Below are positions 11,068 through 30,670 of a stretch of DNA of 64,000 nucleotides, in pieces. Source of the DNA: Beijerinckiaceae bacterium (GTDB taxonomy: Bacteria; Pseudomonadota; Alphaproteobacteria; Rhizobiales; Beijerinckiaceae); NCBI GenBank assembly GCA_027533425.1, contig JAPZUD010000001.1, positions 310,001-374,000 of the forward strand. Direction: 5' to 3'. A program made the translations under genes and the position numbers. The notes beneath the pieces are model-generated. The model made no database searches, was not told where the DNA came from, and saw nothing but the letters and a program-made list of their open reading frames with translations. Each line of letters starts with the position of its first letter. The stretch's first letter is position 1.

Positions 11068-11257
11068 GGTCGGGGGAATCCGGCGAGGGGAGCTCCATCA
11101 AACCACCCCCGCCTGCGCCGCGCCACCCCCGGCACGGGGCTTGCTGGGTGTGACCCGTCTTGGTTGTTGACTCGTCAGGCTTCGCCCGCCGACACTGCGA
11201 CCAAAGTCAAAGACCGGGCCGCGTCCTGCGGTCGGGCTGTATCCGGGAGAATGTCGC
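11068..11257. other. Divergent promoter region of acylase and peptide importer genes
   Basis: This 190-base region must hold promoters for the leftward acylase gene and the rightward importer operon. A TTGACT at 11167-11172 could be a rightward -35 box, but no convincing -10 lies at the right distance. A GGGAGA ribosome binding site precedes the ATG at 11258. I see no strong palindrome. Confidence 0.3.
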
Positions 11258-12772: not shown

Positions 12773-12776
12773 CGGG

Positions 12777-13694: not shown

Positions 13695-14592
13695 TGGCCG
13701 GGCTCGCGGGAACAGGCGCCGTGGCTGCGCCGCCGGAACTCTCGCAGCGGGCCTTGCTCTGGCGCCGCATGCGCGGGCACAAGGGCTTCCTCGCCGGGGC
13801 CATCCTGCTGGCGATCATCGTCCTGGCCTCCGTGCTGGCCCCCTGGCTCGCCCCGCATGATCCCTATGCGCAGGACCTGACGAAGCGGATGATCCCGCCG
13901 ATCTGGGAAGCGCGCGGCCAATGGGTCCATCCGCTCGGCACCGACAATCTCGGCCGCGATTATCTCTCCCGCGTGCTCTGGGGCGGACAGATCTCGCTGC
14001 TGATCGGCCTGTCGGTCATGGTGATTTCGGGTCTGATCGGCGCCGGGCTCGGCCTGGCCGCCGGCTATTTCGGCGGCCGGATCGACCTTGCCATCACCTT
14101 CATCATCACCACGCGCCTCGCCTTGCCGGTTGTGCTGGTGGCGCTTGCCGTGGTCGCGATGATCTCCGGCTCGCTGCTGGTCGTGATCCTGATCCTCGGC
14201 CTGCTGAAATGGGATCGCTTCGCCGTGGTCATGCGCTCGGCCACGCAGCAGGTGAGGGGGCTCGACTATGTCGCGGCCGCCGAGGCTGCCGGCGCCTCGA
14301 CACCGCGGATCATCCTGCGCGAAGTGCTGCCGAACGTGGCCCCGCAGCTGATCGTCGTCGCGACGGTGGAAGCCGCCAGCGCCATCCTGCTGGAAGCGGC
14401 CCTGTCCTTCCTCGGCCTCGGCGTGCAGCCGCCCCTGCCAAGCTGGGGGCTGATGATCTCCGAGGCCAAGGCCTATATGTTCTTCTCGTTCTGGTTGATC
14501 GCCATCCCCGGCTCCGCGCTTGCCCTGCTGGTCCTGGCGATCAACCTCGTCGGCGACGGCCTGCGCGACGTGCTTGCCCCGGATGGCCGCGC

Positions 14593-14596
<4 letters not shown>
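13691..14596 (+). CDS. Peptide-type ABC importer permease (DppC type)
   Basis: The 301-residue partner permease has an N-terminal cytoplasmic stretch, a first helix (GAILLAIIVLASVLAPWLA) and the DppC-type motif HPLGTDNLGRDYLSRVLWG. The ATPase-docking segment is DYVAAAEAAGASTPRIILREVLPN, and the typical SFLGLGVQPPLPSWGLMI follows. These features place it firmly in the DppC/OppC family. It overlaps both neighbours by four bases and is expected to pair with the permease encoded just upstream. Confidence 0.93.
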
Positions 14597-15554
<958 letters not shown>

Positions 15555-15558
<4 letters not shown>

Positions 15559-16535
15559 CAATCCTGCTCGAAGCCCGGAATGTCACGCGTAGCTTCACGG
15601 TCAGCCGGGGACTCTTCGCGCCGAAGCGCCGGCTCAACGCGGTCAACGGGGTGTCTCTTGCCGTTGAGGAAGGCGAGATCCTCGCCATTGTGGGCGAAAG
15701 CGGCTGCGGCAAATCCACCCTCGCGCGGATGCTGCTGGGCCTGCTGCCGGCCAGTTCCGGCGAGATCCGGCTCGGCGGGCAGGACATGCGCAGCATGGGC
15801 CGGCTCGATATCGCCCGCCGTGTCCAGCCCGTTTTCCAGGATCCGTATTCCTCGCTCAATCCGCGACGCCGCATTGCCGAGATCGTGGCCCTGCCGATGG
15901 AAGTTCAGGGCACGGCCGATGCCGCCACCTGCCGCCGGGCGGCGCTCGAGATGCTGGAACGCGTCGGCCTGCCGGAACGCTTCGCCCAGGCCTATCCGGC
16001 CCAGCTTTCCGGCGGGCAGCGCCAGCGCGTCGCCATCGCCCGCGCACTGGTCATGCGGCCGGAACTGGTGATCTGCGACGAACCAACCTCGGCGCTCGAC
16101 GTCTCGGTGCAATCGCAGATCCTGAACCTGCTGATGGATCTCCGGCACGATTTTGGCATAACCTTCGTCTTCATCAGCCATAATCTCGCGGTGGTCGAGC
16201 ATATCGCCAGCCGCGTCGCGGTGATGTATCTCGGGCAGGTGGTGGAACAGGCGGAGACGGCGGCCCTGTTCGAGCGCCCGCGCCATCCCTACACGCAAGC
16301 CTTGCTCGCCTCGGCCCTGACGCCGGAGCCCGGCCTCGGCATTCCGGATACGGGGCTCGGCCTCGCCTTTCCCGATCCGCTCGCGCCGCCGCCGGGCTGC
16401 CCGTTCCATCCGCGCTGCCCGCAGCGCCTCGCCCGATGTGACAAGGTTGTGCCGCCTGTCTTCGAGGACGAGGAGGGAGGCCGCGTGGCCTGCCACCTCG
16501 TCGCTCAGCCGCCGGGCACCAGCGTCACGCCGTAA
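15555..16535 (+). CDS. Peptide-type ABC importer ATPase (DppF type)
   Basis: The 326-residue second ATPase has Walker [11 protein letters not shown]-loop PVFQDPYSSLNPRRRI, signature [15 protein letters not shown], Walker B LVICDEPTSALDVS and the C-terminal cysteine segment CPFHPRCPQRLARC common in DppF/OppF. The ATG at 15555 overlaps the DppD stop by four bases. Its last 31 bases overlap, on the opposite strand, the end of the leftward importer ATPase gene at 16505. The two operons therefore converge with no space for a separate terminator. Confidence 0.93.
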
Positions 16536-17581
16536 TCGGCAAAAGCCAGCAAGACCGGCTGCCCTTCCGGCATGATCTCGCGCGTGCCATGGCGCGTCAC
16601 GTAGAATTCCCCTGCCTCGGTGGCGATCTCGAGATCGAGGTGATTACCGAGATAGGCGCATTTCCGGATGGTGCCGGGCAGCAGGTTGGGGCCACCGGGC
16701 TCGACGATCAGCAACGATTCCGGCCGGATCGCCATCTTCGCCTTGCCCGGCTTCATGCCGCGGGCCGGCAGCGACAGCGTGACCGGGCCCAGCCGCACCT
16801 CGGCACGGTCGCCGGTGACCGTGACGATCTCCACATCGACAAGGTTCGCATCGCCGATGAAATCGGCCACGAACACATCTGCCGGCTCCTCGTAGAGCTG
16901 CCGGGGTGCGCCTTCCTGCGCGATCACGGCATTCGACATCACGATGATCCGGTCGGACACGGCCAGAGCCTCTTCCTGATCATGCGTCACATAGGCGACC
17001 GTCAGGTTCAGCTTCCGCTGCAGGTCGCGGATCTCCTCGCGCATGCGGCGGCGCAGCTTGGCATCGAGGTTCGACAGCGGCTCGTCGAAAAGCAGCACCT
17101 GCGGTTCCAGCACCAGTGCCCGCGCCACGGCGACACGTTGCTGCTGGCCGCCCGACAATTCGGAGGGGAGGCGTTCCTCGTAGCCCTTCATGCCGACGAC
17201 GGCCAGCTTCTCGCGCGCCATTTCGTGCGCCTGCGCCTTGGGCAGGCGTTTCACGGTCGGGCCATAGGCAACGTTTTCCAGCACGGTCATGTGCGGGAAC
17301 AGCGCATAGGACTGGAACACCATGCTGACATCGCGATCCGCTGCCGAGAGCCGCGTCACATCCTTGCCGCCGATCAGGATCTGGCCCTCGCTGGCCATTT
17401 CCAGCCCGGCGATCATGCGCAGGGTCGTCGTCTTGCCGCAGCCCGAGGGGCCGAGCAGCGTGACAAGCGAACCCGCCTCGATGGTGAAGCTTATATCGTT
17501 GACCGCCGTGACGCTGCCATAACGCTTGGTCACGTTGCGGAATTCCACCGATGCCGGTCCTGCCTTCTGCATCACACCCAT
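16505..17581 (-). CDS. ABC importer ATPase, ferric/AfuC-PotA type
   Basis: The 358-residue ATPase has Walker A GPSGCGKTT, Q-loop MVFQSYALFPHMTV, signature LSGGQQQRVAVARAL, Walker [16 protein letters not shown] and switch VTHDQEEALAVSD. A C-terminal TOBE-like domain follows from about residue 240. This set fits the FbpC/AfuC/PotA group. It is the last gene of a leftward run that starts with the SDR at 23543 and contains iolG and an inositol monophosphatase gene. The permease gene ends one base upstream. It would energise the importer formed with the products of 17583-19781 and 19806-20843. Confidence 0.9.
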   Translation of the reverse strand: MGVMQKAGPASVEFRNVTKRYGSVTAVNDISFTIEAGSLVTLLGPSGCGKTTTLRMIAGLEMASEGQILIGGKDVTRLSAADRDVSMVFQSYALFPHMTVLENVAYGPTVKRLPKAQAHEMAREKLAVVGMKGYEERLPSELSGGQQQRVAVARALVLEPQVLLFDEPLSNLDAKLRRRMREEIRDLQRKLNLTVAYVTHDQEEALAVSDRIIVMSNAVIAQEGAPRQLYEEPADVFVADFIGDANLVDVEIVTVTGDRAEVRLGPVTLSLPARGMKPGKAKMAIRPESLLIVEPGGPNLLPGTIRKCAYLGNHLDLEIATEAGEFYVTRHGTREIMPEGQPVLLAFADYGVTLVPGG

Positions 17582-17582
17582 C

Positions 17583-19781
17583 CTAAGCGCCTGCCACGAC
17601 CGGCGCAGGGCCGGATTCGGTTGTCCGCCGTCCGAGCCTGCGCTCGCCGACGCCGAACTGGATAATCGCGATCCCCAGCGCCATCACCACGATGAGCACG
17701 GAGGAATAGGCGATGGCCAGCCCGAATTCGCCGGCCTCGACCCGGCCGACAATATAGGCCGTGGCGAGGTTGTATTCGGCGGAGACAAGGAAGATCACCG
17801 CGCTGACCGCCGTCATCGCCCGCACGAAGGAATAGACCAGGGCCGCCACGAGGGCCGGCCGCAGCAGTGGCAGAAGCACGCGCCAGAGCGTCGTTGCCGA
17901 GCGGGCGCTCAGCGTGGCCGAGGCCTCGTCAAGACTCTTGTCGATCTGCGACAGGCCCGCAATGCCCGACCGCACGCCAACCGGCATGTTGCGGAAAATG
18001 AAGGCGATCACGAGGATCAAACCCGTGCCGGTCATCTCGATAGGCGGGACGTTGAAGGCGAGGATATAGGCCACGCCGATCACGGTGCCGGGAATGGCGA
18101 AGGACAGCATGGTCGAGAACTCGAGGGCCGCGCGCCCCTGGAAGGTCTGGCGCTTGAGGAGATAGGCCGCCAGCAGCCCGACAATGGCTGTCAGCGGCGC
18201 CGAGACGGCGGCCAGCTTCACCGTGGTGAAGAAGGAATCCCAGGCGGCACCCTCGAAATAGAGCCCGCGGCTGAAATCAATCCGGAAGCCGGTCAGGAAA
18301 TGCTCCAGCGTGGGCGTGTAGTCCCGCCCCATCGACTTCACGAAGCCGCCGGTCAGGATGATGACATAGATCACCACCGTCAGGATCACCCAGGGGATGA
18401 CGGTGGCCGAGGCCAGCCAGCTCACCCGGCGGGGCAGGGGTGTCGGCAGGCCGGCATCGCCCTTGCCGGTCAGGGTTGTGTAGGATTTCTTGCCGAGCCA
18501 GCGCTGCTGCAACCAGAAGGCGCCAAGCGTGAAGGACAGCAGCACGAGCGCAAGCACCGCGGCCTGCCCCTCGTTATGGGCGGCCCCGACCACGGCGAAG
18601 AAGATCTTGGTCGAAAGCACCTCGAAATTCCCGCCCAGCACCAGCGGATTGCCGAAATCGGCCATGCTCTCGACGAAGCCGATCAGGAACGCATTGGCGA
18701 TGCCCGGCCGCAGCAGGGGCCAGGTCACCGTCGAGAAGGTTTCCCAGCGCCGGGCGCCAAGTGTCTGCGACGCTTCCTCGAGGCTTGGCGAGATCCCCTG
18801 AACCACGCCGATCAGCACTAGGAAGGCGATCGGCGCGAAGGCGAGGACCTGGGCCAGCAATACGCCCGGCAGGCCATAGATCCAGCGCGTGCGCGGCACG
18901 TCGAACCATTCGTAGAGGAAATTCGAGACAAGCCCGGTCCGGCCGAAGAGCAGGATCAGCGCCAGCCCGATAACGAAGGGCGGCGTGATGATCGGCAGCA
19001 CGGTCAGGGCCCGGAGCAGCCATTTTGCCGGCATGCCCGTCCGCAGGATCAGCAGCGCCGAGGCAAGGCCGAGCAGCGTGGTGATTGCCCCGCAGAGAAC
19101 GGCCAGAAGAAGCGTGTTCCAGGCCACGCCGCAGCTGACATCCCGCGTCAGGCAGCCCAGCCCCCAGATGGAGGAATCGAGGAACCGGTCGAGGAAGGCA
19201 CCGGGATCGACCCTGCCGGCTTCGCCGATCAGCGCGCCTTTCAGCACCGTCACGACCGGAAAGAAGATGAAGAGGCCGATCATCAGGATCAGCAGCCCGA
19301 TCATCGAGCACGTGAAGACATCGCCCCGGCAGAAGCCGCGATAGGCGAGGCCATGGCAGAAGAGCAGCAACATCCCGACAATCGTGACGAGCGCACCCGG
19401 CCCCATCCCCGCTTGCGCGGCGCCTTGGCCCCCGAACAGCGCCGCGAGCCACGGAATGCCCTGTCCGCGCAGGGTGATCGCGAAACCCTGCATGAAGAAC
19501 AGGAGAAAGCCCGCCGCCCCGGCAAGCAGGAGGATCGAGGCCGCCCGCTGCTCGTCCTGCTTCGGCCAGGCCAGGCCAGCCATCAGGAGCATCGCCCCGC
19601 CGGGCAGCAGCCAGGGGGCGGCGCCGGAAAGCCCGAGCGCCAGCGCGCTGCCGCCCTTGCCGAACGGGTAGCCTGACAGCCAGCCAAGCGACGCCAGGCC
19701 CATCCCCTCGGTGAAATACCAGGGGAGGAGCCCGAAGCCACACCAGGCCAGCAGATACAGCAGGCGGGTCGAGGGCCGCAT
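17583..19781 (-). CDS. ABC importer permease with two channel domains (FbpB/AfuB type)
   Basis: The 732-residue membrane protein carries both channel halves in one chain. ATPase-docking segments are visible in each half: EEASQTLGARRWETFSTVTWPLLRPG near the middle and DEASATLSARSATTLWRVLLPLLRPALV near the C-terminus. Extra hydrophobic helices precede the first half (residues 1-150), making it longer than a minimal FbpB. Such fused permeases occur with ferric-iron, phosphonate and hexose-phosphate (AfuABC) importers. Its operon partners are inositol genes, which favours an organic phosphate over iron; that is inference. Confidence 0.9.
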   Translation of the reverse strand: MRPSTRLLYLLAWCGFGLLPWYFTEGMGLASLGWLSGYPFGKGGSALALGLSGAAPWLLPGGAMLLMAGLAWPKQDEQRAASILLLAGAAGFLLFFMQGFAITLRGQGIPWLAALFGGQGAAQAGMGPGALVTIVGMLLLFCHGLAYRGFCRGDVFTCSMIGLLILMIGLFIFFPVVTVLKGALIGEAGRVDPGAFLDRFLDSSIWGLGCLTRDVSCGVAWNTLLLAVLCGAITTLLGLASALLILRTGMPAKWLLRALTVLPIITPPFVIGLALILLFGRTGLVSNFLYEWFDVPRTRWIYGLPGVLLAQVLAFAPIAFLVLIGVVQGISPSLEEASQTLGARRWETFSTVTWPLLRPGIANAFLIGFVESMADFGNPLVLGGNFEVLSTKIFFAVVGAAHNEGQAAVLALVLLSFTLGAFWLQQRWLGKKSYTTLTGKGDAGLPTPLPRRVSWLASATVIPWVILTVVIYVIILTGGFVKSMGRDYTPTLEHFLTGFRIDFSRGLYFEGAAWDSFFTTVKLAAVSAPLTAIVGLLAAYLLKRQTFQGRAALEFSTMLSFAIPGTVIGVAYILAFNVPPIEMTGTGLILVIAFIFRNMPVGVRSGIAGLSQIDKSLDEASATLSARSATTLWRVLLPLLRPALVAALVYSFVRAMTAVSAVIFLVSAEYNLATAYIVGRVEAGEFGLAIAYSSVLIVVMALGIAIIQFGVGERRLGRRTTESGPAPVVAGA

Positions 19782-19805
19782 CGCAACCTTCCGGACAGGG
19801 CCGGG

Positions 19806-20843
19806 TTATTTCGGCAGCTTCTTGACCTCGTTGTCCCATTTGCTCAGCAGCCGCTTGCGCTCGGCCGAGGAGCCGTATTTCGCAAAGTCATAGTCGATGA
19901 GCTTCACATCGGCGAGCTTCGGCGATTGCGGCGGCGGGATGACGTTCTTGTTCGACGGGACCTGATAGGATTTCGCCTCCTCGGCCAGCTTCTGTGCGGC
20001 CGGGGTGAGGGCCCAGTCATAGAATTTCTTGGCATTGTCGAGGTTGCGCGCGCCCTTGACGATCGACATCGACCCGATCTCGTAGCCCGTGCCCTCGCAC
20101 GGGGCGACAACTTTCACCGGGCCGCCATTGACCACCATCGTGACCATGTCATGCATGAAGGTGATGCCGACAGTCGTTTCGCCGAGGCTGGTTGCCTTGG
20201 CCGGTGCCGCGCCGGATTTGGTGTACTGGTTGATGTTCTTGTGCAGGGCCTTGAGGTAGTCGAAGGCCTTGTCCTCCCCCATCAGCTGCACGAGCGTCGC
20301 CAGCATGGTGTAGGACGTGCCCGAGGAGTTCGGATCGGCAACCTGAACCTCGTCCTTGAGCTTGGGATTGATCAGGTCGGCCCAGCATTTCGGTTCCGGA
20401 ATCCCGCGCGAGGCCACCTGCTTGGTGTTGAAGCCGAAGCCCAGCGCGCCGGCATAGATCCCGACCGTGCGACCTTGCGAGCCCTTCCATTGCCGCAACG
20501 CCCAATCATGAAGTTCGGCCATTTTCGGGCTTTCATAGGCTTCGGTCAGCCCTTCCTCTGCGGCCTGCAGATGCGGATCGCCCGTGCCGCCCCACCAGAC
20601 ATCGCCCCGCGGATTCGAGGCTTCCGCCTTGATCTGCGCATAGGTCTCGCCCGAGCTCTTGCGCGTCATCGAGACCTTGATGCCGGTTTCCTTCTCGAAG
20701 GCGTTGGCCATCGGCCGGCACCATTCTTCCTGCACCGAGCAATAGAGCACCAGCGCGCCTTGTGCCTTGGCGGCCGAGACCATCATGAGGGCCGTGCCGG
20801 CCAACGCGAGTGTGAGAGCCTTGCGGCGAGCATTTTGGACCAT
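19806..20843 (-). CDS. Periplasmic binding protein, AfuA/ferric-type; possible sugar- or inositol-phosphate binder
   Basis: The 345-residue product has a signal peptide (ALTLALAGTALMMVSAAKAQG) and belongs to the family usually named iron(III) binding proteins. The ATG at 20843 has an ideal GGGAGGAAACC upstream; a GTG 33 bases earlier has none. The segments MTRKSSGETYAQIKAEASNP and WWGGTGDPHLQAAEEGL fit AfuA, which binds hexose phosphates. From memory of the AfuA structure, ligand contacts are His205, Asp206 and Glu229. Here His231, Asp232 and Glu255 have the same 24-residue spacing. The gene follows an inositol monophosphatase-family gene by 65 bases in the same direction. A ligand such as inositol phosphate is inferred. 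Confidence 0.8.
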   Translation of the reverse strand: MVQNARRKALTLALAGTALMMVSAAKAQGALVLYCSVQEEWCRPMANAFEKETGIKVSMTRKSSGETYAQIKAEASNPRGDVWWGGTGDPHLQAAEEGLTEAYESPKMAELHDWALRQWKGSQGRTVGIYAGALGFGFNTKQVASRGIPEPKCWADLINPKLKDEVQVADPNSSGTSYTMLATLVQLMGEDKAFDYLKALHKNINQYTKSGAAPAKATSLGETTVGITFMHDMVTMVVNGGPVKVVAPCEGTGYEIGSMSIVKGARNLDNAKKFYDWALTPAAQKLAEEAKSYQVPSNKNVIPPPQSPKLADVKLIDYDFAKYGSSAERKRLLSKWDNEVKKLPK

Positions 20844-20870
20844 GGTTTCCTCCCGTCTTGTCGGTTTTCT

Positions 20871-20896
20871 TTTCACTGTGCTGCCTTTCGGTGAAA
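20871..20896. promoter_or_regulatory. Inverted repeat upstream of the importer binding-protein gene
   Basis: TTTCAC at 20871-20876 and GTGAAA at 20891-20896 form a perfect 6-base inverted repeat with 14 bases between. It lies in the 65-base gap between the inositol monophosphatase stop and the binding-protein start. The arms sit 28 to 53 bases before the ATG, where an operator could act on an internal promoter. Six-base arms can occur by chance, so this is only a candidate. Confidence 0.3.
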
Positions 20897-20908
20897 GATC
20901 AACACGAA

Positions 20909-21700
20909 TTAGCTTTGGCTAACGATGCCTGTGAGGGTTTCCAGAACTGCGGCCAGCCCCGGGGTCACGCAGAGGATCGGATTCCCCTTGGCGATGCCCT
21001 CGCCGGCGAAGAAATCATTCATCACCGCCCCCGCCTCGGCCGCGATCACCATGCCGGCGGCCACATCCCATGCGTTGATATGCCGCTCCGCATAGGCATC
21101 CGTCCGGCCATTGGCGACATGGCAGAGGCCCAAAGCGCCGCTTGCCGAGCGCTTGACCGAGGCACCGGCCTCGAAGGCGCGCCGGACCATGGCGAGATAA
21201 TCGTCGAGCGGCACCCGCTTGGACCAGCCCATCTCGATCGAGGCGCGGCGGATATCGGTGCCGTCGGAAACGCGGATCGGCACCCCGTTCAGCGTCGCGC
21301 CCCGGCCGCGCCGGCCGAGATAGGTCTCGCCCAGCGACGGCGCAGCGACGATTCCGATTTCCGGCACCCCTTCCACCAGCAGCCCGACCGAGATGCACCA
21401 GTTCCGGTCGCCCCGGGCGAAATTCGCCGTCCCGTCGATCGGATCGATGATCCAGGTGGCCTGCGAGACCGCACCGCCGCCTTCCTCGCCGATCACCGTA
21501 TCCTCCGGGAAGAGAATGGCGATCCGCTCGCGCAGGAAAGCCTCCACGGCGCCATCGGCCACAGTCAGCCAGTCCTGGTCGCCCTTCATCGTGACGCCGA
21601 GGCTGTCCTTGCGCAGGAAGTAGTCCAGCGCCATCACCGAAACCTCGGCAACGAGGCCCTGGATGGCATAGTGGCGGCGGTCGAGTTCGGCAGGGCTCAT
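20909..21700 (-). CDS. Inositol monophosphatase-family phosphatase
   Basis: The 263-residue cytoplasmic product is a Mg-dependent phosphatase of the SuhB/IMPase/HisN family. The metal site is clear: GEEGGG, with its conserved Glu, then WIIDPIDGTANFARG, and WDVAAGMVIAAEAGAV near the C-terminus, with the third Asp. IMPase proteins usually read DPLDGTTNF, so the match is close. Family members hydrolyse inositol phosphate, histidinol phosphate, fructose bisphosphate or PAP. Here the gene lies three bases after iolG and before a phosphate-sugar-type importer. That makes an inositol or related sugar phosphate the best guess. Confidence 0.87.
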   Translation of the reverse strand: MSPAELDRRHYAIQGLVAEVSVMALDYFLRKDSLGVTMKGDQDWLTVADGAVEAFLRERIAILFPEDTVIGEEGGGAVSQATWIIDPIDGTANFARGDRNWCISVGLLVEGVPEIGIVAAPSLGETYLGRRGRGATLNGVPIRVSDGTDIRRASIEMGWSKRVPLDDYLAMVRRAFEAGASVKRSASGALGLCHVANGRTDAYAERHINAWDVAAGMVIAAEAGAVMNDFFAGEGIAKGNPILCVTPGLAAVLETLTGIVSQS

Positions 21701-21703
21701 GGC

Positions 21704-22699
21704 TCAGTCCAGCGTGACGGCAACCGGCTTGCCGGTCTTCCAGGAATTGGTGGCGGCATCGGCGAGGATCTGCGCCTTCAGCCCGTCGAGGCCGGACGGG
21801 GAGGGCGCATGCCCGCTCTGGATCGCGGCGATGAAGGTTTCGAGCTCGATCCGGTAGGCGGCGGCATAGCGCTCGAGGAAGAAGTTCTGCACCGGATCGG
21901 CGCGGAAGCCCTGGCCGGTGGCGCTCTCGACGCTGGTCTCGTGGATATTGCCGGCCCGCAGCATGCCGCCAGAGCCATGAACCTCGATCCGCTGGTCATA
22001 GCCATAGGTGGCGCGGCGCGAATTCGAGATCTGCGCGATCTTGCCCGAGCGCGTCTTCATCAGCACGGCGGCCGTGTCGACATCGCCCGCCTCGCCGATG
22101 GCCGGGTCGACCAGCGACGAGCCCAGCGCATAAACCTCGACCGGCTCCTCGCCGAGCAGGAAGCGCGCCATGTCGAAATCATGGATCATCATGTCGCGGA
22201 ACAGCCCGCCCGAGCGTTTCACATAGTCGACAGGCGGCGGGCCGGGATCCCGGGAGATGACCGAGACAATCTCGACCGCGCCGATCTCGCCCGCATGGAG
22301 CCGGCGGTGCAGGGCGGCAAAATTCGGGTCGAACCGCCGGTTGAAGCCGATCATCAGCGGCTTGCCGCTGGCCGACACCACCTCGAGGCAACGGCGGATC
22401 CGCCCCGCATCGAGATCGACCGGCTTCTCGCAGAACACCGCCTTGCCGGCCCGGCTCGCGGCCTCGATCAGGTCGGCATGCATATCGGTGGGTGTGCAGA
22501 TCAGCACCGCATCGATGCCGGAATCGCCGAGGATCGCCTCGATGGTCGAGACGCCGGCCCCGGCGGCGCGGGCCAGATTGCGCGCGGCCTCCTCTGAGGC
22601 ATCCGCCACCGAAACAAGCCGGGCATCGCTGCGTGCCGCCACGTTCAGCCCGTGAATGCGCCCGATCCGGCCGGCGCCGAGCAACCCGAACCGGATCAT
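21704..22699 (-). CDS. iolG: Inositol 2-dehydrogenase
   Basis: The 331-residue Gfo/Idh/MocA-family enzyme oxidises myo-inositol to 2-keto-myo-inositol (scyllo-inosose) with NAD. The N-terminal Rossmann motif is GLLGAGRIGRIHG. The catalytic Lys lies in AVFCEKPVDLD, and MIGFNRRFDPNF is typical of IolG/IdhA. Length fits the family. The start ATG lies 43 bases after the SDR stop, and inositol monophosphatase follows after three bases. The product feeds IolE, which is encoded on the opposite arm of the same locus. Other inositol isomers are possible substrates. Confidence 0.9.
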   Translation of the reverse strand: MIRFGLLGAGRIGRIHGLNVAARSDARLVSVADASEEAARNLARAAGAGVSTIEAILGDSGIDAVLICTPTDMHADLIEAASRAGKAVFCEKPVDLDAGRIRRCLEVVSASGKPLMIGFNRRFDPNFAALHRRLHAGEIGAVEIVSVISRDPGPPPVDYVKRSGGLFRDMMIHDFDMARFLLGEEPVEVYALGSSLVDPAIGEAGDVDTAAVLMKTRSGKIAQISNSRRATYGYDQRIEVHGSGGMLRAGNIHETSVESATGQGFRADPVQNFFLERYAAAYRIELETFIAAIQSGHAPSPSGLDGLKAQILADAATNSWKTGKPVAVTLD

Positions 22700-22742
22700 C
22701 GTGCAGGCCTTCCGGCCGGAAGGAGGAGGTCAGGGCGCGGCA

Positions 22743-23543
22743 TCAATCATGGGCTCCAAGGATGGTCTGATCGAAATCGATATTGCTGCCGGTCATCAGA
22801 CCGGATTCGCCGGAAGCAAGATAGGCCACGGCCTTGGCCACTTCGCGCGGGTCGATCAGCCGGCCGAAAGGACGGCCCTTCGCCGCCTCATCCAGCCAGC
22901 CATCCTGCGCCTGATGGTGCCGCCGCATGATCGCATCCTCGCCCGGCGTCGCCATCCAGCCGATATTCAGCCCGTTGACGCGGATCCGGTCCGCCAGCAA
23001 GGCATAGGCAACATTGCGCGTCAGCATCGCCAGCGCGCCTTTCGACACGGAATAGGGGGTCAGGAACGGCTGACCGCCATGCGCCGACATCGACTGGATG
23101 TTGATGATCGCGCCGGCAACGCCCTGCCGCTTCATGAGATTGACGGCATCCTGGATCAGGAAGAACGGCGCCCGCAGGTTCACCGCCATGATCCGTTCGT
23201 AGAGTTCGGGCGAGGTATCGCAGATCGTGCCGCGATCGGTATCGCCTGCGGCATTGACGAGGATGTCGAGCCGCCCGAAGGCCGCCTCGGCCGCAGGAAC
23301 CAGCTGGCGGACGGCGTCGAGATCGGCCAGATCGGCCGCATGGAAAACGATCCGGCAGCCCGCTCGCTGCAGCGTATCCACCACCCTTGCGCCCCGTTCG
23401 GCATTCCGGCCGGTCAGCAGCAGGCCGGAAGCGCCGCGTTCGACGAATTCGCGCGCAATGGCCTCGCCGAGGCCCTGCGTCGCACCGGTGACCAGCGCCA
23501 CCTTGCCGGTGAGATCGCGGCTGAAATCGACGGTTCCGGTCAC
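22743..23543 (-). CDS. Short-chain dehydrogenase/reductase of the inositol locus
   Basis: The 266-residue NAD(P)-dependent oxidoreductase has the classical SDR motifs. The cofactor loop is TGATQGLGEA, NAA appears in LDILVNAAGD, and the catalytic Ser and Tyr-X3-Lys occur in INIQSMSAHGGQPFLTPYSVSKGAL. The start is GTG at 23543, with GAGGA seven bases before it; longer frames run through the divergent promoter and are unlikely. It is the first gene of the leftward inositol arm and lies directly beside the IolR-type operator. It may oxidise another inositol isomer or a sugar alcohol, but no substrate can be read from sequence. Confidence 0.85.
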   Translation of the reverse strand: MTGTVDFSRDLTGKVALVTGATQGLGEAIAREFVERGASGLLLTGRNAERGARVVDTLQRAGCRIVFHAADLADLDAVRQLVPAAEAAFGRLDILVNAAGDTDRGTICDTSPELYERIMAVNLRAPFFLIQDAVNLMKRQGVAGAIINIQSMSAHGGQPFLTPYSVSKGALAMLTRNVAYALLADRIRVNGLNIGWMATPGEDAIMRRHHQAQDGWLDEAAKGRPFGRLIDPREVAKAVAYLASGESGLMTGSNIDFDQTILGAHD

Positions 23544-23560
23544 GGGGTCCTCGCCTTGAT

Positions 23561-23578
23561 GATACGTTTGTTTCGTAT
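23561..23578. promoter_or_regulatory. Second candidate IolR site, inverted repeat
   Basis: ATACG at 23562-23566 and CGTAT at 23574-23578 form an inverted repeat with seven bases between. Read on the minus strand, bases 23574-23561 match the neighbouring GGAA-N6-TTCC site at 10 of 14 positions, including the whole AACAAAC core. This could be a weaker regulator half of the same control region and lies just upstream of the SDR start. It is a candidate only. Confidence 0.35.
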
Positions 23579-23590
23579 TTCTTGACTGTT

Positions 23591-23604
23591 GGAACAAACA
23601 TTCC
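23591..23604. promoter_or_regulatory. IolR-type operator, GGAA-N6-TTCC
   Basis: GGAA at 23591 and TTCC at 23601 flank six bases (CAAACA). This is the palindrome reported as the IolR recognition sequence in Sinorhizobium meliloti. It lies in the 113-base region between the divergent SDR and rpiR-type genes, where it could control both arms. One such match is expected by chance in about 64 kb, so its position next to an RpiR regulator of inositol genes carries the argument. Confidence 0.65.
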
Positions 23605-23656
23605 ATATTGCCGTCGCGCCCGTCAAGCGGATTGCGCCATCGGTTACGGGGAATCC

Positions 23657-24508
23657 ATGCCGCCCAAAGTCGCCGCCCTGCCAGCGCCGCCCGGCGACTA
23701 TGCGGAGCTGGTCTACCGGCTCCGGACAGAGGGCGCGCGCCTGCCGCCGCGCCTGCGGCAGGTGGCTGAACACATGCTGGCCCACCCGGAGGATATGGCC
23801 TTCGAAACCACAGCGGGCATCGCCGCCCGGGCAGGGGTCCAGCCCTCGACCCTCGTGCGGTTCGCGCAGGCACTGGACTATCCCGGCTTTTCCGATCTCC
23901 AGCAGGTTTTCCGCAACCGCCTCCGGCGCGAACATTCCGATCACCGTGCCCGGCTTGCGGCCTTGCGGGACGAGGTGCCCGGTGAAAACGGCATGGCGCG
24001 CACCCTGCTCGACGGCTTCATCCGCGCCAGCCAGGCCTCGCTGGAAACCCTCTCCGCCCGGACAGAGCCGGCGACGATTGAGGCCGCCGCCGGAATCCTT
24101 GCCAGCGCCGGTACAGTCTATCTCGTCGGCGCGCGCCGCATGTTTCCGGTCGTGTCCTATCTCGCCTATGCCTTTGGCAAGCTTGGCATCCGCGCGGTGC
24201 TGGTCGACAATGTCGGGGGCCTCGGTGCCGAGCAGGCCGCCATGGCCAGCCGCGCGGATGCGATGATCGCCGTCAGCTTTTCGCCCTACACCCCCCAAAC
24301 CATCGAGATGGCGCGCGAGGCCCATCGCAACGGCGTGCCGGTCATCGCGCTGACCGATGGGGCCCTCAGCCCGCTGGCCGGCAATTGCCGCCTGTTGCTG
24401 GAGGTCGTCGAAGCCGATTTCGGCGCCTTCCGCTCCATGGCCGCCACCTTCGCCCTCGCCATGACCCTGTCTGTCGCCACTGCCGAGAAGATCCGCGCCG
24501 ATGCCTGA
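23657..24508 (+). CDS. iolR: RpiR-family regulator of inositol catabolism (IolR type)
   Basis: The 283-residue regulator has an N-terminal helix-turn-helix (about residues 15-85; GIAARAGVQPSTLVRFAQALDYPGFSDLQ). A C-terminal sugar-isomerase-like SIS domain follows (VYLVGARRMFPVVSYLAYAF, ... IAVSFSPYTPQTIEMAREA). RpiR proteins sense phosphorylated sugars through the SIS domain. GGGGAA precedes the ATG at 23657; an upstream in-frame ATG at 23582 would run across the operator and is rejected. It overlaps iolC by eight bases. As in rhizobia it probably represses the locus until an inositol intermediate appears. Confidence 0.88.
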   Translation: MPPKVAALPAPPGDYAELVYRLRTEGARLPPRLRQVAEHMLAHPEDMAFETTAGIAARAGVQPSTLVRFAQALDYPGFSDLQQVFRNRLRREHSDHRARLAALRDEVPGENGMARTLLDGFIRASQASLETLSARTEPATIEAAAGILASAGTVYLVGARRMFPVVSYLAYAFGKLGIRAVLVDNVGGLGAEQAAMASRADAMIAVSFSPYTPQTIEMAREAHRNGVPVIALTDGALSPLAGNCRLLLEVVEADFGAFRSMAATFALAMTLSVATAEKIRADA

Positions 24509-26414
24509 TCCCGTCCTCGATCTCATCACGATCGGCCGTTCCTCAGTCGACCTTTATGGCCAGCAGATCGGCGGCCGGCTGGAGGATATGGGCACCTTCG
24601 TCAAGGCTGTCGGCGGCTGTCCGGCCAATATCGCGATCGGTACGGCGCGGCTCGGCCTGAAATCGGCCCTGGTCAGCCGGGTTGGCAACGAGCAGATGGG
24701 CCGCTTCATCCTCGAGCAGCTGGCCCGCGAGGGCGTCGTGACCGGGGGCGTTGCCATCGACCCGAAGCGGCTCACTGCCCTCGTCATTCTCGGCGTGCGC
24801 GACGAGACGACCTTCCCGCTGATCTTCTACCGGACCGATTGCGCCGATGCCGCCCTGGCACCGGAGGATATCAATCCGGATTTCATCGCCTCAGCGCGGG
24901 CCATCGTGGTCACCGGCACGCATTTTGCCGCGCCTTCGCCCGCCGAGGCGCAGAAAAAGGCGATCCGCATCGCCCGCGAGAATGGCCGCAAGGTCGTGTT
25001 CGACATCGATTACCGGCCCAATCTCTGGGGGCTGGCCGGCCATGCGGACGGGGAATCGCGCTATATCCGCTCCGACCGCGTGACCCAGCATCTGCAGGCC
25101 ATCCTTCCTGATTGCGACCTGATCGTCGGGACCGAGGAGGAACTGCATATTGCCGGCGGCTCCGAAAACACGCTGGAGGCGATCCGGACGATCCGCAGCC
25201 TCAGCGCGGCGACCATCGTCTGCAAGCGCGGGCCGATGGGATGCGTCGTCTTCCCCGATGCCATTCCCGAGAGCCTTGATGAGGGAATTCGCGGCCCCGG
25301 CTTTCCGGTCGAGGTCTATAACGTCCTTGGCGCGGGCGATGCGTTCCTGTCCGGCTTCCTGCGCGGCTGGCTTGGCGGCGAGCCGCTGGAAACCGCCTGC
25401 GCCTGGGCCAATGCGTGCGGCGCCTTCGCCGTCTCGCGGCTGCTTTGCTCGCCGGAAAACCCGACCTTTCCGGAGCTTCAGTTCTTCCTGAAGAACGGGT
25501 CGCCGCATCGGGCCCTGCGACGCGACGAGGCGATCAACCATATCCATTGGGCCACAACCCGTCGCGCCGTGGCCCTGCCCATGCTGGCTTTCGCCATCGA
25601 TCATCGCGTCCAGCTGGAGGAGATGGCGGATGCGGCCGGCGTCCCGCACAGCCGGATCGCGCGCTTCAAGACGCTCGCCGTCACCGCGGCGGCGCGCGTT
25701 GCCGACGGCAGGCCCGGATTCGGCATGCTGCTCGACGGCAGCTATGGCCGCGAGGCCTTGTTCCGCGCCCGTGATCACGGATTCTGGGTAGCCCGCCCGC
25801 TGGAAAAGCCCGGGTCCCGCCCGCTGGCCCTCGAATGCGAGGAGGCCGGCGCGCTGGGGACCGAACTGGCGGAATGGCCCGTCGATCATATCGCGAAAGT
25901 CCTGTGCTTCTACCACCCGGAGGATCCGGAGCCGCTTCGCGCGGCGCAGGAAGCGATGCTGCTGCGCGTCGCCCGGACCTGCCGGCAGGTTGGCCGGGAA
26001 ATGCTGGTCGAGATCATCGCCTCCCGCCATGGCCCGGTCGGACCGGATACCGTCGCCGCGATCCTCGAACGGCTCTATGCCCTCGGCATCCGGCCGGATT
26101 GGTGGAAACTCGAGCCGCAGGCCGATCCTGCCGCCTGGGCCGCGATCGACGCTGTGATCGCCCGCGAGGATCCCTGGTGCCGCGGCGTGCTGCTGCTGGG
26201 CCTCGAGGCCCCGGAAGCCGCGCTCGCCGCGAGCTTTCGGCTGGGCCGTTGCGCGAAATCCGTGCAGGGGTTTGCGGTCGGGCGAACAATCTTTGCGCAG
26301 CCGGCGCGGGACTGGCTTTCGGGCGCCATCGACGACGAGGGAGCGATCATGGCCATGGCGGCAGGGTTCGCCCGGCTGGTGACAGCCTGGGAAGAGGCGG
26401 AGGAGCAAGCATGA
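24501..26414 (+). CDS. iolC: IolC fused to a DUF2090 aldolase-like domain
   Basis: The 637-residue protein joins two domains. Residues 1 to about 330 form a PfkB-family sugar kinase (GGCPANIAIGTARLG near the start; catalytic GAGDAF in VYNVLGAGDAFLSGF). This is 5-dehydro-2-deoxygluconokinase. Residues from about 335 to 637 form DUF2090, related to class I-type barrels and thought to serve as the 5-dehydro-2-deoxyphosphogluconate aldolase step. It begins near HWATTRRAVALPMLAFAIDHR. This fusion is common in proteobacterial iol clusters. The ATG lies inside the last codons of iolR. IolD follows with a four-base overlap. Confidence 0.9.
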   Translation: MPDPVLDLITIGRSSVDLYGQQIGGRLEDMGTFVKAVGGCPANIAIGTARLGLKSALVSRVGNEQMGRFILEQLAREGVVTGGVAIDPKRLTALVILGVRDETTFPLIFYRTDCADAALAPEDINPDFIASARAIVVTGTHFAAPSPAEAQKKAIRIARENGRKVVFDIDYRPNLWGLAGHADGESRYIRSDRVTQHLQAILPDCDLIVGTEEELHIAGGSENTLEAIRTIRSLSAATIVCKRGPMGCVVFPDAIPESLDEGIRGPGFPVEVYNVLGAGDAFLSGFLRGWLGGEPLETACAWANACGAFAVSRLLCSPENPTFPELQFFLKNGSPHRALRRDEAINHIHWATTRRAVALPMLAFAIDHRVQLEEMADAAGVPHSRIARFKTLAVTAAARVADGRPGFGMLLDGSYGREALFRARDHGFWVARPLEKPGSRPLALECEEAGALGTELAEWPVDHIAKVLCFYHPEDPEPLRAAQEAMLLRVARTCRQVGREMLVEIIASRHGPVGPDTVAAILERLYALGIRPDWWKLEPQADPAAWAAIDAVIAREDPWCRGVLLLGLEAPEAALAASFRLGRCAKSVQGFAVGRTIFAQPARDWLSGAIDDEGAIMAMAAGFARLVTAWEEAEEQA

Positions 26415-28255
26415 CCACCATTCGTCTTACCGCCGCACAGGCGATGGTCCGCTATCTGGCGGCACAGCGCACGCGGATCGACGGCCATGACGTGCCGCTT
26501 TTCGCCGGGATCTGGGCGATTTTCGGCCATGGCAACGTGGCCGGCATGGGTGAGGCGCTCGCCGAAAGCACCGAGGCCCTGCCCACCTTCCGCGCCCATA
26601 ACGAACAGGCCATGGCCCATGCCGCCATTGCCTATGCCAAGCAGAGCCGCCGCCGCCGGATGATGGCCTGCACCTCCTCGATCGGGCCCGGCGCCACCAA
26701 CATGGTCACCGCGGCTGCCTTGGCCCATGTGAACCGCCTGCCGGTCCTGCTGATCCCCGGTGATGTCTATGCCAGCCGGCGGCCTGACCCGGTTCTGCAG
26801 CAGGTGGAGAGCTTCGCCGACGCCACTGTCTCGGCCAATGATTGCTTCCGTCCGGTCTCGCGCTTCTTCGACCGGATCACCCGGCCGGAGCAGCTTTTGG
26901 CCAGCCTGCCGCGCGCGCTCGATGTGCTGACGGATCCGGCCGAATGTGGCCCGGTCACGCTGGCTTTCTGCCAGGATGTGCAGGCCGAAGCCTATGACTG
27001 GCCCGAAAGCTTTTTCGCGCCGCGCCTGCGCGAACCGCGCCGGCCCCGCCCGGCCCGCAGCGAGCTTCAGGCCGCGCTGGATGCCCTGAAGTCGGCGAAG
27101 GCGCCGCTGATCATCGCCGGCGGCGGCGTTCTCTATTCCGGCGCCGAGGGGCGTCTGGCCCGTTTCGCGGCGAAGGCGGGTATTCCCGTTGCCGAGACGC
27201 AGGCCGGAAAAGGCGCGATGCCGCGCGATCACGCGATGGTCTTGGGGGCGATCGGTGTCACCGGCACCACGGCCGCCAACCATCTCGCCCGGCAGGCGGA
27301 TTGCATCCTCGCCATTGGCACGCGGCTGCAGGATTTCACGACCGGTTCGCGCAGCCTGTTCGAAAACCCGGCCATGCGGTTGATCGGACTCAATGTTCAG
27401 CCCTTCGATGCCGCCAAGCACGGTGCCCTGCCGCTGGTCGGCGATGCGGAGGAGGGGCTGGCGGAACTTTCGGCCGGGCTTGCGGGCTGGTCCGCCCCGG
27501 TCGGCTGGGGCGAGGCGGCCCGCGCCGCCCGGACGGCATGGAATGCCGAAGCCGCGGCCAGCCTGGCGCCCGTCGCGGCCACGCGGCCCCGGGATCCGGC
27601 GGTGATCGGCGCCGTTTTGCGCCAGAGCCGCAAGAGCGATGTGGTGGTCTGCGCGGCCGGCGGCCTTCCGGGCGAGCTGCACAAGCTCTGGGAAGCCGGC
27701 GCGCCCGGCGGCTACCATCTCGAATATGGCTTCTCGACCATGGGCTACGAGATTGCCGGCGGGCTTGGTGTCAAGATGGCCGAGCCGGACCGCGAGGTCT
27801 TCGTCATGGTCGGCGACGGGTCCTATCTGATGATGAATTCCGAGATCGCTACCTCGGTCATGCTGGGGCTCAAGCTCACGCTGGTCGTGCTGGACAATGG
27901 CGGCTATGGCTGCATCGACCGGCTCCAGCGTGCCACCGGTTCAGCCAGCTTCAACAATCTTCTCAGCACCGCCCGCCATGTGACTCTGCCCGCGATCGAT
28001 TTCGTCGCCCATGCCCGCAGCCTCGGCGCAAAGGCCAGCAAGGTCAGCAGCCTTTCGGGGCTGGAGACGGCGCTGAAAAAGGCCCGTCGCTCGCGCCAGA
28101 CCGAGGTCATTGTCATCGAGACCGATCCGTCCGAAGGCTCGGGGATTGGCGGCCATTGGTGGGATGTCGCCGTACCGGAAGTCTCGGCCCGGCCGGCGGT
28201 GAAGGCGGCGCGCACGGCCTATGAGGCCGCGCGCCGGGCCCAGAAGCTTGCATGA
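26411..28255 (+). CDS. iolD: 3D-(3,5/4)-trihydroxycyclohexane-1,2-dione hydrolase
   Basis: The 614-residue thiamine-diphosphate enzyme opens the ring of the diketone made by IolE, giving 5-deoxy-glucuronate. Visible features are the N-terminal Glu for cofactor activation (FRAHNEQAMAHAA), the motif TSSIGPGATNMVT, and the C-terminal metal/ThDP motif GDGSYLMMNSEIATSVMLGLKLTLVVLDN, which starts with GDG. Domain order is the usual PYR, central and PP arrangement. The ATG at 26411 overlaps the iolC stop by four bases. Length matches IolD. Confidence 0.92.
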   Translation: MTTIRLTAAQAMVRYLAAQRTRIDGHDVPLFAGIWAIFGHGNVAGMGEALAESTEALPTFRAHNEQAMAHAAIAYAKQSRRRRMMACTSSIGPGATNMVTAAALAHVNRLPVLLIPGDVYASRRPDPVLQQVESFADATVSANDCFRPVSRFFDRITRPEQLLASLPRALDVLTDPAECGPVTLAFCQDVQAEAYDWPESFFAPRLREPRRPRPARSELQAALDALKSAKAPLIIAGGGVLYSGAEGRLARFAAKAGIPVAETQAGKGAMPRDHAMVLGAIGVTGTTAANHLARQADCILAIGTRLQDFTTGSRSLFENPAMRLIGLNVQPFDAAKHGALPLVGDAEEGLAELSAGLAGWSAPVGWGEAARAARTAWNAEAAASLAPVAATRPRDPAVIGAVLRQSRKSDVVVCAAGGLPGELHKLWEAGAPGGYHLEYGFSTMGYEIAGGLGVKMAEPDREVFVMVGDGSYLMMNSEIATSVMLGLKLTLVVLDNGGYGCIDRLQRATGSASFNNLLSTARHVTLPAIDFVAHARSLGAKASKVSSLSGLETALKKARRSRQTEVIVIETDPSEGSGIGGHWWDVAVPEVSARPAVKAARTAYEAARRAQKLA

Positions 28256-28274
28256 CACAACAGGGAATCCCCGG

Positions 28275-29171
28275 ATGATCCGCATCGGCGCCAATCCTAT
28301 CGGCTGGTCGAATGACGACCTCCAGCATATCGGCGGGGCGACTCCGCTCGAAACGTGCCTCGCCGAAGCCCGCGAGGCCGGGTTCGAGGGCATGGAACTG
28401 GGCCATAAATTCCCGCGTCAGGCGGATGCGCTACAAGCCGCCCTCGCGCCCTATCGCATGGCCTGCATCTCTGGCTGGTATTCCGCCGAACTGCTCCGCC
28501 GCGATGCCGCGGAGGAATTGCGCCACCTCCGCCCGCATCTCGACCTGCTGAAGGCGATGGGCTCGGATGTGCTCGTTTTCGCGGAAACCTCGAACGCGAT
28601 CCATGGCAACCGCGCCCTGCCGCTCTCGCGCCGGCCGAAGCTCGGAGCCGGGGATTGGGCGCAATGGGGCGCGCGCCTGACCGCTGTCGCCGAGGCCACC
28701 CTGCGGGAAGGTGTCCGTCTGGTCTACCATCACCATATGGGCACGATCGTCGAGGATGCCGCCGATATTGCCGCGCTGATGGCCCATACCGGCGAGGCCG
28801 TTCATCTGCTGCTCGATACCGGCCATGCGACATGGGGCGGGGCCGATCCGGCCGAACTGGCGCGAAGCTACCGGCACCGCATCAGCCATGTCCATGCGAA
28901 GGATGTCCGGCGCGCGGTGATGGAGCGCGCCCGCCGCGAGGATTGGAGCTTCCTCGACGCCATTCTTGGCCCGGGCGCCGAACTCGGGGTCTATACCGTG
29001 CCGGGCGACGGGATGGTCGATTACGAGGCCGTTTTCCGCGCCCTGCCGGGCTATGCCGGCTGGGTGGTGGTCGAGGCGGAGCAGGATCCGGAAAAGGCCC
29101 ATCCACTGACCTATGCGAAAAAGGGTGTCGCGCATCTCCGCGCCGCCCTGAAGGCCGCCGGCCTCGCCTGA
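28275..29171 (+). CDS. iolE: Inosose dehydratase
   Basis: The 298-residue xylose-isomerase-like TIM barrel removes water from 2-keto-myo-inositol. It starts with the typical IGANPIGWSNDDLQHIGG. Metal-binding segments are visible in VYHHHMGTIVED, LLDTGHATWGGADP and RISHVHAKDVRR, and the end of the barrel reads VVVEAEQDPEKAHPLTYAKKG. These are strong IolE marks. The ATG at 28275 lies 19 bases after the iolD stop. The gene acts between iolG and iolD in the pathway. Confidence 0.93.
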   Translation: MIRIGANPIGWSNDDLQHIGGATPLETCLAEAREAGFEGMELGHKFPRQADALQAALAPYRMACISGWYSAELLRRDAAEELRHLRPHLDLLKAMGSDVLVFAETSNAIHGNRALPLSRRPKLGAGDWAQWGARLTAVAEATLREGVRLVYHHHMGTIVEDAADIAALMAHTGEAVHLLLDTGHATWGGADPAELARSYRHRISHVHAKDVRRAVMERARREDWSFLDAILGPGAELGVYTVPGDGMVDYEAVFRALPGYAGWVVVEAEQDPEKAHPLTYAKKGVAHLRAALKAAGLA

Positions 29172-29182
29172 AGGAGAACGCC

Positions 29183-29983
29183 ATGTCGTCGCTGCTCCTC
29201 AAGGCCGGTCCCGCCAATGACAACGGGCATCGCCACCGGGTCACCCCCGCTTCGGCCGGCTGGACGCATGTCGGCTTCGAAACCGCCCGGCTGGTCTCCG
29301 GCGAGGCCCTGTCCCGGCAGGAACCCGGCCGCGAGACCTGCCTCGTGCTGCTGGCGGGCAAGGCCCGTGTGAACGCGGGAGGCAGGGATTTCGGCGTGAT
29401 CGGCGGCCGTTCATCACCATTCGAGCCTGATGTCTGGTCTGTCTACATCCCGGCGGGAATGCCGTGGCAGGCGGTCGGCGAGGGCCCCTGCGAAGTCGCG
29501 CTTTGCACGGCGCCGGGCGGGCCCGGCCTGCCGGCCCGGGTAATTTCACCGTCCGAGGTCGGCATGCTGACCCGCGGCACCGGCACGAATACCCGCCATG
29601 TCCGGAACATCCTGCCGGAAACCGAGCCGGCGGAATCCCTGCTGGTGGTCGAGGTGATCACCCCGTCGGGCAATTGGTCGAGCTATCCGCCCCACAAGCA
29701 CGATACCGACAATCTTCCCGCGGAATCCCTGCTGGAGGAGACCTATTACCACCGGTTAAACCCGCCGCAGGGTTTCGGCTTCCAGCGCGTCTACACGGAT
29801 GACCGCAGCCTCGACGAGACCATGGCCATCGGTGATCGCGATGTCGTGCTCGTGCCGCGCGGCTATCACCCGGTCGGCGCCGCCCATGGCTATGATCTCT
29901 ATTATCTCAACGTGATGGCGGGGCCGAAGCGGATCTGGAAATTCCACAACGATCCCGCCCATGAATGGATGCTGGGGCGCTGA
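29183..29983 (+). CDS. iolB: 5-deoxy-glucuronate isomerase
   Basis: The 266-residue double cupin converts 5-deoxy-glucuronate to 5-dehydro-2-deoxygluconate, the substrate of IolC. The metal-binding cupin text is clear: SSYPPHKHDTDN, with the His residues and the Glu in ESLLEETYYHRLNPPQGFGFQRVY. The C-terminal GYHPVGAAHGYDLYYLNVMAG is highly typical. AAGGAG precedes the ATG at 29183, eleven bases after the iolE stop. It is the last gene of the rightward arm. A convergent gene ends 12 bases away. Confidence 0.93.
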   Translation: MSSLLLKAGPANDNGHRHRVTPASAGWTHVGFETARLVSGEALSRQEPGRETCLVLLAGKARVNAGGRDFGVIGGRSSPFEPDVWSVYIPAGMPWQAVGEGPCEVALCTAPGGPGLPARVISPSEVGMLTRGTGTNTRHVRNILPETEPAESLLVVEVITPSGNWSSYPPHKHDTDNLPAESLLEETYYHRLNPPQGFGFQRVYTDDRSLDETMAIGDRDVVLVPRGYHPVGAAHGYDLYYLNVMAGPKRIWKFHNDPAHEWMLGR

Positions 29984-29995
29984 GCGGCGCTGGCC

Positions 29996-30670
29996 TCACC
30001 GCTCCACGCGGAACTGGCAGCCCTTCACGACGCCCGGCAGCGGATCGCCGAAGGTACGGTTCGAGCAATCGACATTGCCGGGGCGGTTGAACCGCCTTTG
30101 CGTCCAGACCCCGTTGGCGCCATACGCAACCGTGGTCGGGTAGGGAATGAAGCAGGGCTCGTTCTCGCCGGCGCAGCGCGACCATTGGTTCCGCGGCGGT
30201 GGCGGGGCCACGGGCGGAGCATTTCGCAGCACCTGGAAATGGCAGGACTTGCCAACCCCGACCAGCGGATCGCCGAAGGTCCGGTTCGAGCAATCGATGT
30301 TCCCCGGCCGTGTGAAGCGTTTGCGCGCCCAGACGCCGTTCGCGCCATAGGCGACAGTTGTCGCATAGGGAATGAAGCAGGGCTCGTTTTCGCTCGCGCA
30401 ACGCGACCATTGCCCAGAACCCTGTCCGGAACTGCTGTTCGCCATCTGGCAATTGCAGACCGACATCTGGCCGAACTGGGTTGTGCGCCAATGTCCTGTC
30501 CATTGTCCGCCGGCCTGACCGCAGATGCGGGGGCATTTCTGCTGCGCGTCGGGCTGGTTCCAGATCGGGCCGGCATTGATATCGCGCGCGCCCTGCGCAA
30601 AGGCCGGCAGGGCAAGGGCAAAGAGGACGACAAGACCGGTGATCAGGCGCCGGAAGGGAGAAGCGGGCAT
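29996..30670 (-). CDS. Secreted lectin-like protein with a tandemly repeated 60-residue domain
   Basis: The 224-residue product has a signal peptide (LITGLVVLFALALPAFAQG). Residues 28-76 resemble a mannan-binding (MVL-type) unit: INAGPIWNQPDAQQKCP and a Trp-rich GGQWTGHW, ending in CNC. Two near-identical units follow, residues 88-147 and 163-222, about 80% identical, joined by a proline-rich linker. Each has the pattern WSRCA-ENEPCFIPY-TTVAYGANGVW and CSNRTFGDPL, with three spaced cysteines that probably pair. Similar domains occur in carbohydrate-active extracellular proteins. A periplasmic or surface sugar-binding role is inferred; I cannot name the domain with certainty. Confidence 0.7.
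   Translation of the reverse strand: MPASPFRRLITGLVVLFALALPAFAQGARDINAGPIWNQPDAQQKCPRICGQAGGQWTGHWRTTQFGQMSVCNCQMANSSSGQGSGQWSRCASENEPCFIPYATTVAYGANGVWARKRFTRPGNIDCSNRTFGDPLVGVGKSCHFQVLRNAPPVAPPPPRNQWSRCAGENEPCFIPYPTTVAYGANGVWTQRRFNRPGNVDCSNRTFGDPLPGVVKGCQFRVER

Follow-up and report, generated by a model that had tools for sequence, protein, structure and literature searches.

A candidate IolR-controlled module for the catabolism of phosphorylated inositol, with an AfuABC-type importer, in a Beijerinckiaceae bacterium

The genome of a Beijerinckiaceae bacterium (assembly GCA_027533425.1, 3.75 Mb, called G000 here) carries a divergent gene cluster in which an ATP-binding cassette (ABC) importer of the AfuABC type and an inositol monophosphatase-family phosphatase (IMPase) are encoded together with the enzymes of inositol (iol) catabolism. 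The cluster lies in the window, that is, the whole stretch of 64,000 nucleotides that was analysed (contig JAPZUD010000001.1, G000:C11:310001-374000). Gene calls were scored against NCBIfam curated cut-offs and Pfam domains; G codes denote genomes and L codes individual loci or stretches compared. The features, in window positions, are the following.

16505..17581, minus strand: afuC, ABC transporter ATPase (PF00005 and TOBE_2)
17583..19781, minus strand: afuB, fused permease of 732 aa with two BPD_transp_1 stretches (Pfam)
19806..20843, minus strand: afuA, periplasmic binding protein of the AfuA (sugar-phosphate) type (sequence comparison)
20909..21700, minus strand: inositol monophosphatase-family phosphatase, IMPase (PF00459, 185.5 bits)
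21704..22699, minus strand: iolG, inositol 2-dehydrogenase (TIGR04380, 445 bits, cut-off 355)
22743..23543, minus strand: short-chain dehydrogenase/reductase (SDR)-family oxidoreductase, PRK06198 subfamily (397.5 bits, cut-off 240)
23591..23604, no strand: IolR-type box GGAACAAACATTCC in the divergent promoter (motif match)
23657..24508, plus strand: iolR, RpiR-family regulator with HTH_6 and SIS domains (Pfam)
24501..26414, plus strand: iolC fused to DUF2090, kinase/aldolase (NF047869, 699 bits, cut-off 600; PF09863)
26411..28255, plus strand: iolD (TIGR04377, 931.5 bits, cut-off 715)
28275..29171, plus strand: iolE (TIGR04379, 374 bits, cut-off 290)
29183..29983, plus strand: iolB (TIGR04378, 332.7 bits, cut-off 205)

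From the divergent promoter, the leftward arm runs SDR, iolG, IMPase, afuA, afuB and afuC, with intergenic gaps of 1 to 65 bases, and the rightward arm runs iolR, iolC-DUF2090, iolD, iolE and iolB; the likely starts after revision are GTG at 23543 for the SDR gene, ATG at 23657 for iolR, 28275 for iolE and 29183 for iolB. Coordinates, NCBIfam and Pfam thus bear out a first-pass annotation of this DNA, in that all genes named in both arms are present, intact and in the directions given, and the phosphatase gene (PF00459) does lie between the importer and dehydrogenase genes; the importer is also there, although its permease has to be revised to a single fused two-part protein. The products of iolB, iolC, iolD, iolE and iolG all exceed their NCBIfam cut-offs, and iolA, which is unlinked to the cluster (G000:C8:189072), exceeds its cut-off in all 4 genomes checked. 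None of the 25 NCBIfam models listed is matched by AfuC above its cut-off, the ferric and PhnT2 types scoring highest. The neighbour of iolB at 29996-30670 encodes a small protein that carries a mannan-binding domain of the MVL type (PF12151).

The assignment of the importer to the AfuABC rather than the ferric type holds by E values, identity, fold ranking and residues. The window binding protein matches AfuA at E 3e-99 and ferric binding proteins at E 7e-13 or weaker, and is 46-50% identical to proteins of the AfuA/VcA0625 type. It has the sugar-contact triad of AfuA (H205, D206 and E229) and both phosphate contacts (Ser37 and Thr150). The triad is also present in the best copy at 35/35 iol-linked loci and at 27/27 loci with IMPase only, and Thr150 is conserved in 35/35 iol-linked copies. 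Near the pocket the window protein carries the substitutions T11Q, N12E, N35K, G36S and S39E relative to AfuA, of which S39E also occurs in AfuA proteins unlinked to iol genes or IMPase and hence is not specific. The alignment-based structure model of AfuA was good, and the single-sequence model had a predicted local distance difference test (pLDDT) score of only 34.7. At L032, L034, L048, L049 and L059 two AfuA copies lie near each other, the second with an altered pocket (Leu11, Pro60, Gln269 lost), and such pairing suggests two candidate cargo proteins serving one transporter.

The phosphatase belongs to the inositol monophosphatase family by PF00459 and by the motifs GEE, DPIDGT and WD, unchanged across 10 sequences, which we take to be the metal-site motifs (E-E, DPIDGT, WD) of that family; its substrate is putative. 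No signal peptide was seen when the protein was judged by eye. The IMPase of L090, a locus from a Beijerinckiaceae metagenome-assembled genome (MAG), is 92% identical to it. A HAD-family phosphatase is encoded near AfuABC-IMPase at L028 (5113-5772) and L029 (14103-14765), in a genus that has iol genes elsewhere.

The search of genomes for this gene order that had been proposed earlier showed that the set recurs within the family and outside it, confirming that it is more than a chance association. All eleven genes are grouped in the window and likewise in L021, L022, L023, L050, L066, L067, L070, L185, L186 and L187 (L090 repeats L021, and L184 repeats L070). L181 has the full set except iolR, which was not detected, and L196 has the order IMPase-iolG // iolCDEB // afuCBA, with SDR and iolR not detected. 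Among the 199 genomes of the family set, the binding protein is matched at least once in 137, IMPase is matched with an E value of 1e-50 or better in 54, and 48 have an AfuA of at least 63% identity; iolD exceeds its cut-off in 45 of these 48 genomes and in 38 of the 151 without such an AfuA, counts that ignore kinship. The three genomes with such an AfuA but no iolD over cut-off include G106, in which iolD is partial. In G148, G189, G163 and G110, all of one genus, iolC-D-E and IMPase are on different contigs.

In a class-level set of 385 genomes, AfuA was found at E 1e-110 or better in 29, of which 27 are outside the family and were all sampled at the best AfuA locus (at most 20 kb each). 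Seven of these 27 loci have iol genes (L205, L207, L209, L210, L213, L214 and L219, spanning five family codes), where 0.19 would be expected assuming one iol locus per genome (P 6e-10), and 14/27 have an IMPase of at least 35% identity. On an AfuA tree (FastTree, 117 rows with second copies at one locus as separate rows, and long-branch warnings) iol linkage requires at least 15 changes, and therefore the linkage has been gained or lost repeatedly. Furthermore, a GTDB scan, from which 80 of 585 loci were kept, showed AfuABC together with the IMPase part of the cluster in Bosea species, a Methylobacterium MAG and Falsiroseomonas stagni, the order SDR-iolG-iolG-IMPase-afuABC in an Aquincola MAG, and IMPase with iol genes in a Roseomonas MAG, AfuA missing from its stretch; from L087 onwards, the kept loci mostly have only a distant IMPase. 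On a Roseomonas gilardii plasmid, iolB, iolE, iolC, an RpiR regulator and iolG face afuABC-IMPase-histidine phosphatase. This AppA/Agp-family phosphatase (L241, 14204-15439, NZ_CP095555.1), directly behind afuABC-IMPase, matches the AppA-phytase and Agp models below cut-off, and gave no tblastn match in the other loci sampled at that stage. AfuABC-IMPase operons were also seen on plasmids of S. meliloti, Pantoea (Gammaproteobacteria) and Neorhizobium (L240, L242 and L243, respectively), where the permeases are annotated as iron transport; in Neorhizobium, iolB is about 4 kb on. Two Sinorhizobium records were without annotation in the region compared.

The Caulobacter inositol repressor IolR acts via GGAA-N6-TTCC according to the available part of PMC2597717. 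In the window, a box of this form at 23591-23604 lies between both arms, inside the spacer of a site that resembles a promoter for the rightward arm, and is a putative operator. A second exact match occurs at 62241 and 0.8 is expected by chance per window, so the single box is weak taken alone. However, when the region from 300 bases upstream to 60 bases inside the SDR-iolG-IMPase-afuA operon was compared among non-duplicate loci, the box was found in 14/15, with 0.19 expected, several of these loci being close relatives; L187 is the sole locus without it. L036, L064 and L069 keep it with no iolCDEB in their stretches (that of L068 stops at a contig end), and therefore it belongs to the SDR-iolG-IMPase-afuA operon. 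Over all AfuA loci, 16/95 non-duplicate loci have the box (1.2 expected). In addition, an exact IolR-like box stands before a permease gene in two other loci, at 1398 in L062 and at 15266 in L061. Both encode a ferric-type ABC system distinct from AfuABC. In L062 (Devosia neptuniae NZ_CP104964.1, 1558-10494) it comes with two IMPase genes, three binding proteins and a dual-specificity phosphatase (PF00782, below cut-off), and in L061 (S. meliloti 1021 pSymB, 9001-18741) a distant permease and ATPase accompany an IMPase; perhaps rhizobia and their kin have here another system for inositol phosphate.

The usual inositol importer, said earlier to be absent, is indeed not in the cluster, and genome-wide none was found by PF13407 or PF00083, CUT1 and other types being outside this test. 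Of seven PF13407 matches in G000, XylF is the strongest and over cut-off, and it alone is clearly a sugar-type binding protein; among the other six, which are weaker, the two that were inspected are both LacI-type regulators. G026, which has the full gene set, has no PF13407 match. A strong IolT-type sugar porter was not seen in G000, where the best PF00083 match has a modest 102.7 bits, and the PF02653 permease search gave 27-31 matches per genome, too many to discriminate.

The AfuA type, the IMPase motifs, the conserved box, the repeated linkage and the failure to find a usual importer together support the earlier proposal that the cluster acts on phosphorylated inositol, and it is probably an IolR-controlled module for this catabolism. 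We also lean towards the wider view that inositol monophosphate is the dedicated cargo of a widespread AfuABC subfamily whose members mostly bear the name of "iron" transporters. In the proposed mechanism, periplasmic AfuA would bind inositol monophosphate, the His-Asp-Glu triad holding the ring and Ser/Thr/Gly residues the phosphate, and AfuB and AfuC would import it. The IMPase-family enzyme, presumably cytoplasmic, would split the ester into phosphate and free inositol, so that the compound might serve as a source of carbon and perhaps phosphate. IolG would oxidise inositol, the SDR perhaps acting on another stereoisomer, and IolE, IolD, IolB and IolC-DUF2090 would continue the breakdown, which the unlinked IolA would complete. 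IolR would keep both arms repressed through one common operator, and inositol or a catabolite would lift the repression.

A number of observations weigh against this interpretation. Position 37 is not Ser/Thr in 13/35 iol-linked AfuA copies, and the triad is also found in 27/30 AfuA proteins that have no iol genes and no IMPase in their neighbourhood and therefore is no proof of an inositol ligand. IMPase and iolG occur without an adjacent AfuA in L189, L190, L192 and L193, as does IMPase in G030 and G141, both without iolD over cut-off; iol genes are missing from many stretches with an AfuABC-IMPase cluster, and 20/27 of the outside-family AfuA loci have none nearby. IMPase is below the NCBIfam equivalog cut-offs, histidinol-phosphatase being the top score, and reaches 118.5 against 332 bits for the inositol-1-monophosphatase model PRK10757. 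The box is confined to one operon form, with L026 and L213 as exceptions and that of L219 just beyond 300 bases, and is found in 11/32 loci with iolB-E in the stretch. Moreover, no HAP or PTP-like phytase exceeds its cut-off in G000 (beta-propeller phytase was not searched): PF00328 gave one sub-cut-off fragment there and nothing in 7 other genomes, and PF14566 two sub-cut-off fragments across 4 genomes, none in G000. The monophosphate may come from phytases of neighbours or from phosphatidylinositol breakdown.

Pocket residues alone would equally suit a hexose phosphate, and AfuABC might import hexose or heptose phosphates (glucose 6-phosphate (G6P), fructose 6-phosphate) as in Actinobacillus, operon-sharing being incidental and IMPase acting elsewhere. 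The window protein is about 50% identical to AfuA with the same triad, and homologues are also found away from iol genes; however, iol linkage recurs under five other family codes and on the Roseomonas plasmid, the IolR-type box is conserved, the residues at 11, 12, 35, 36 and 39 differ (not all specific, as with S39E), and G6P catabolism needs neither a phosphatase nor an inositol dehydrogenase, which makes this explanation unlikely. AfuA distinguishes G6P from glucose 1-phosphate, and does not bind glucose, according to the available part of PMC4546632. The latter result, the phosphate contact T150 in every iol-linked copy, and an IMPase linkage commoner than iol linkage (14 vs 7 of 27) render it very improbable that AfuABC replaces a CUT2 importer in bringing in free inositol or an isomer, with IMPase as an incidental neighbour, even though some inositol route is needed where that importer is not found. 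A phosphodiester such as glycerophosphoinositol as substrate, or phosphate supply as the main role, would agree with the AfuABC-IMPase clusters that include a HAD phosphatase but lack iol genes within the stretch, but none of the eleven cluster genes is a phosphodiesterase, and the iol genes and IolR-type box indicate carbon use; this too has very little likelihood. Ferric iron import, which follows the database names, was judged extremely unlikely from the sequence ranking and fold ranking of the binding protein. Pyridoxal phosphate cargo was rejected on residues 206 and 229, and for phosphonate the PhnS2, PhnU2 and PhnT2 models all match below cut-off.

The AfuABC family, the iol pathway and an inositol-phosphate ABC system as a KEGG entry are already known. 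Phosphorylated inositol is a common organic phosphorus compound, acid phytases stop at inositol monophosphate, and in the usual picture the phosphate is removed outside the cell and free inositol is taken up. If the inositol monophosphate reading is true, AfuABC-IMPase-iol would complete the path by which phytate or phosphatidylinositol enters central metabolism, a path in which outside enzymes make the monophosphate, AfuABC imports it, IMPase frees inositol and IolR governs both arms; in Roseomonas the AppA-family phosphatase (below cut-off) is in the same cluster. Genome-based prediction of inositol catabolism and of phytate use would then change, many transporters now named for "iron" would need renaming, and a directly testable ligand would be at hand. 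In the literature searched, no paper linking AfuABC to inositol phosphate was found, and the combination was not found in print. The available parts of PMC11065229, PMC9611204, PMC9927469 and PMC12262181 treat afuA as an iron gene. In PMC9611204, so far as its available part goes, Rhizobium etli afuA (RHE_RS10880) and IMPase (RHE_RS10865) have near-by tags, and a myo-inositol 1-phosphate transporter of R. etli bacteroids is not joined to them.

Among known systems, AfuABC of Actinobacillus pleuropneumoniae and G6P-binding VcA0625 share with the window protein the fold, H205/D206/E229, S37, T150, Y103 and Q269, whereas residues 11, 12, 35, 36 and 39 differ and the window operon additionally holds IMPase, inositol dehydrogenase and the IolR-type box. 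Binding of hexose phosphate at nanomolar affinity is a mark of this importer family. The P5PAB importer of pyridoxal-5'-phosphate has a binding protein of the same family (42% identity) with Gln at 11 in common, but Asp206 and Glu229 of the window protein are both Ala in P5PA. The window sequence is not closer to the ferric FbpA proteins, which have a tyrosine pair as iron ligands, than to AfuA. IbpA-IatA-IatP of Caulobacter and Sinorhizobium has in common the RpiR-type regulator, GGAA-N6-TTCC, iolCDEB and inositol dehydrogenase, but carries free inositol, and the available part of PMC2597717 mentions no phosphatase. An IbpA-type binding protein was not found in G000, apart from the xylose protein. 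InoEFGK is a CUT1-type system reportedly first described in Thermotoga. Its annotated substrate (KEGG M00599) is inositol phosphate in the available parts of PMC5237526, PMC12008989 and PMC8129789, and, compared by description, it has four units with two permease proteins, whereas the window system has three genes with a fused permease.

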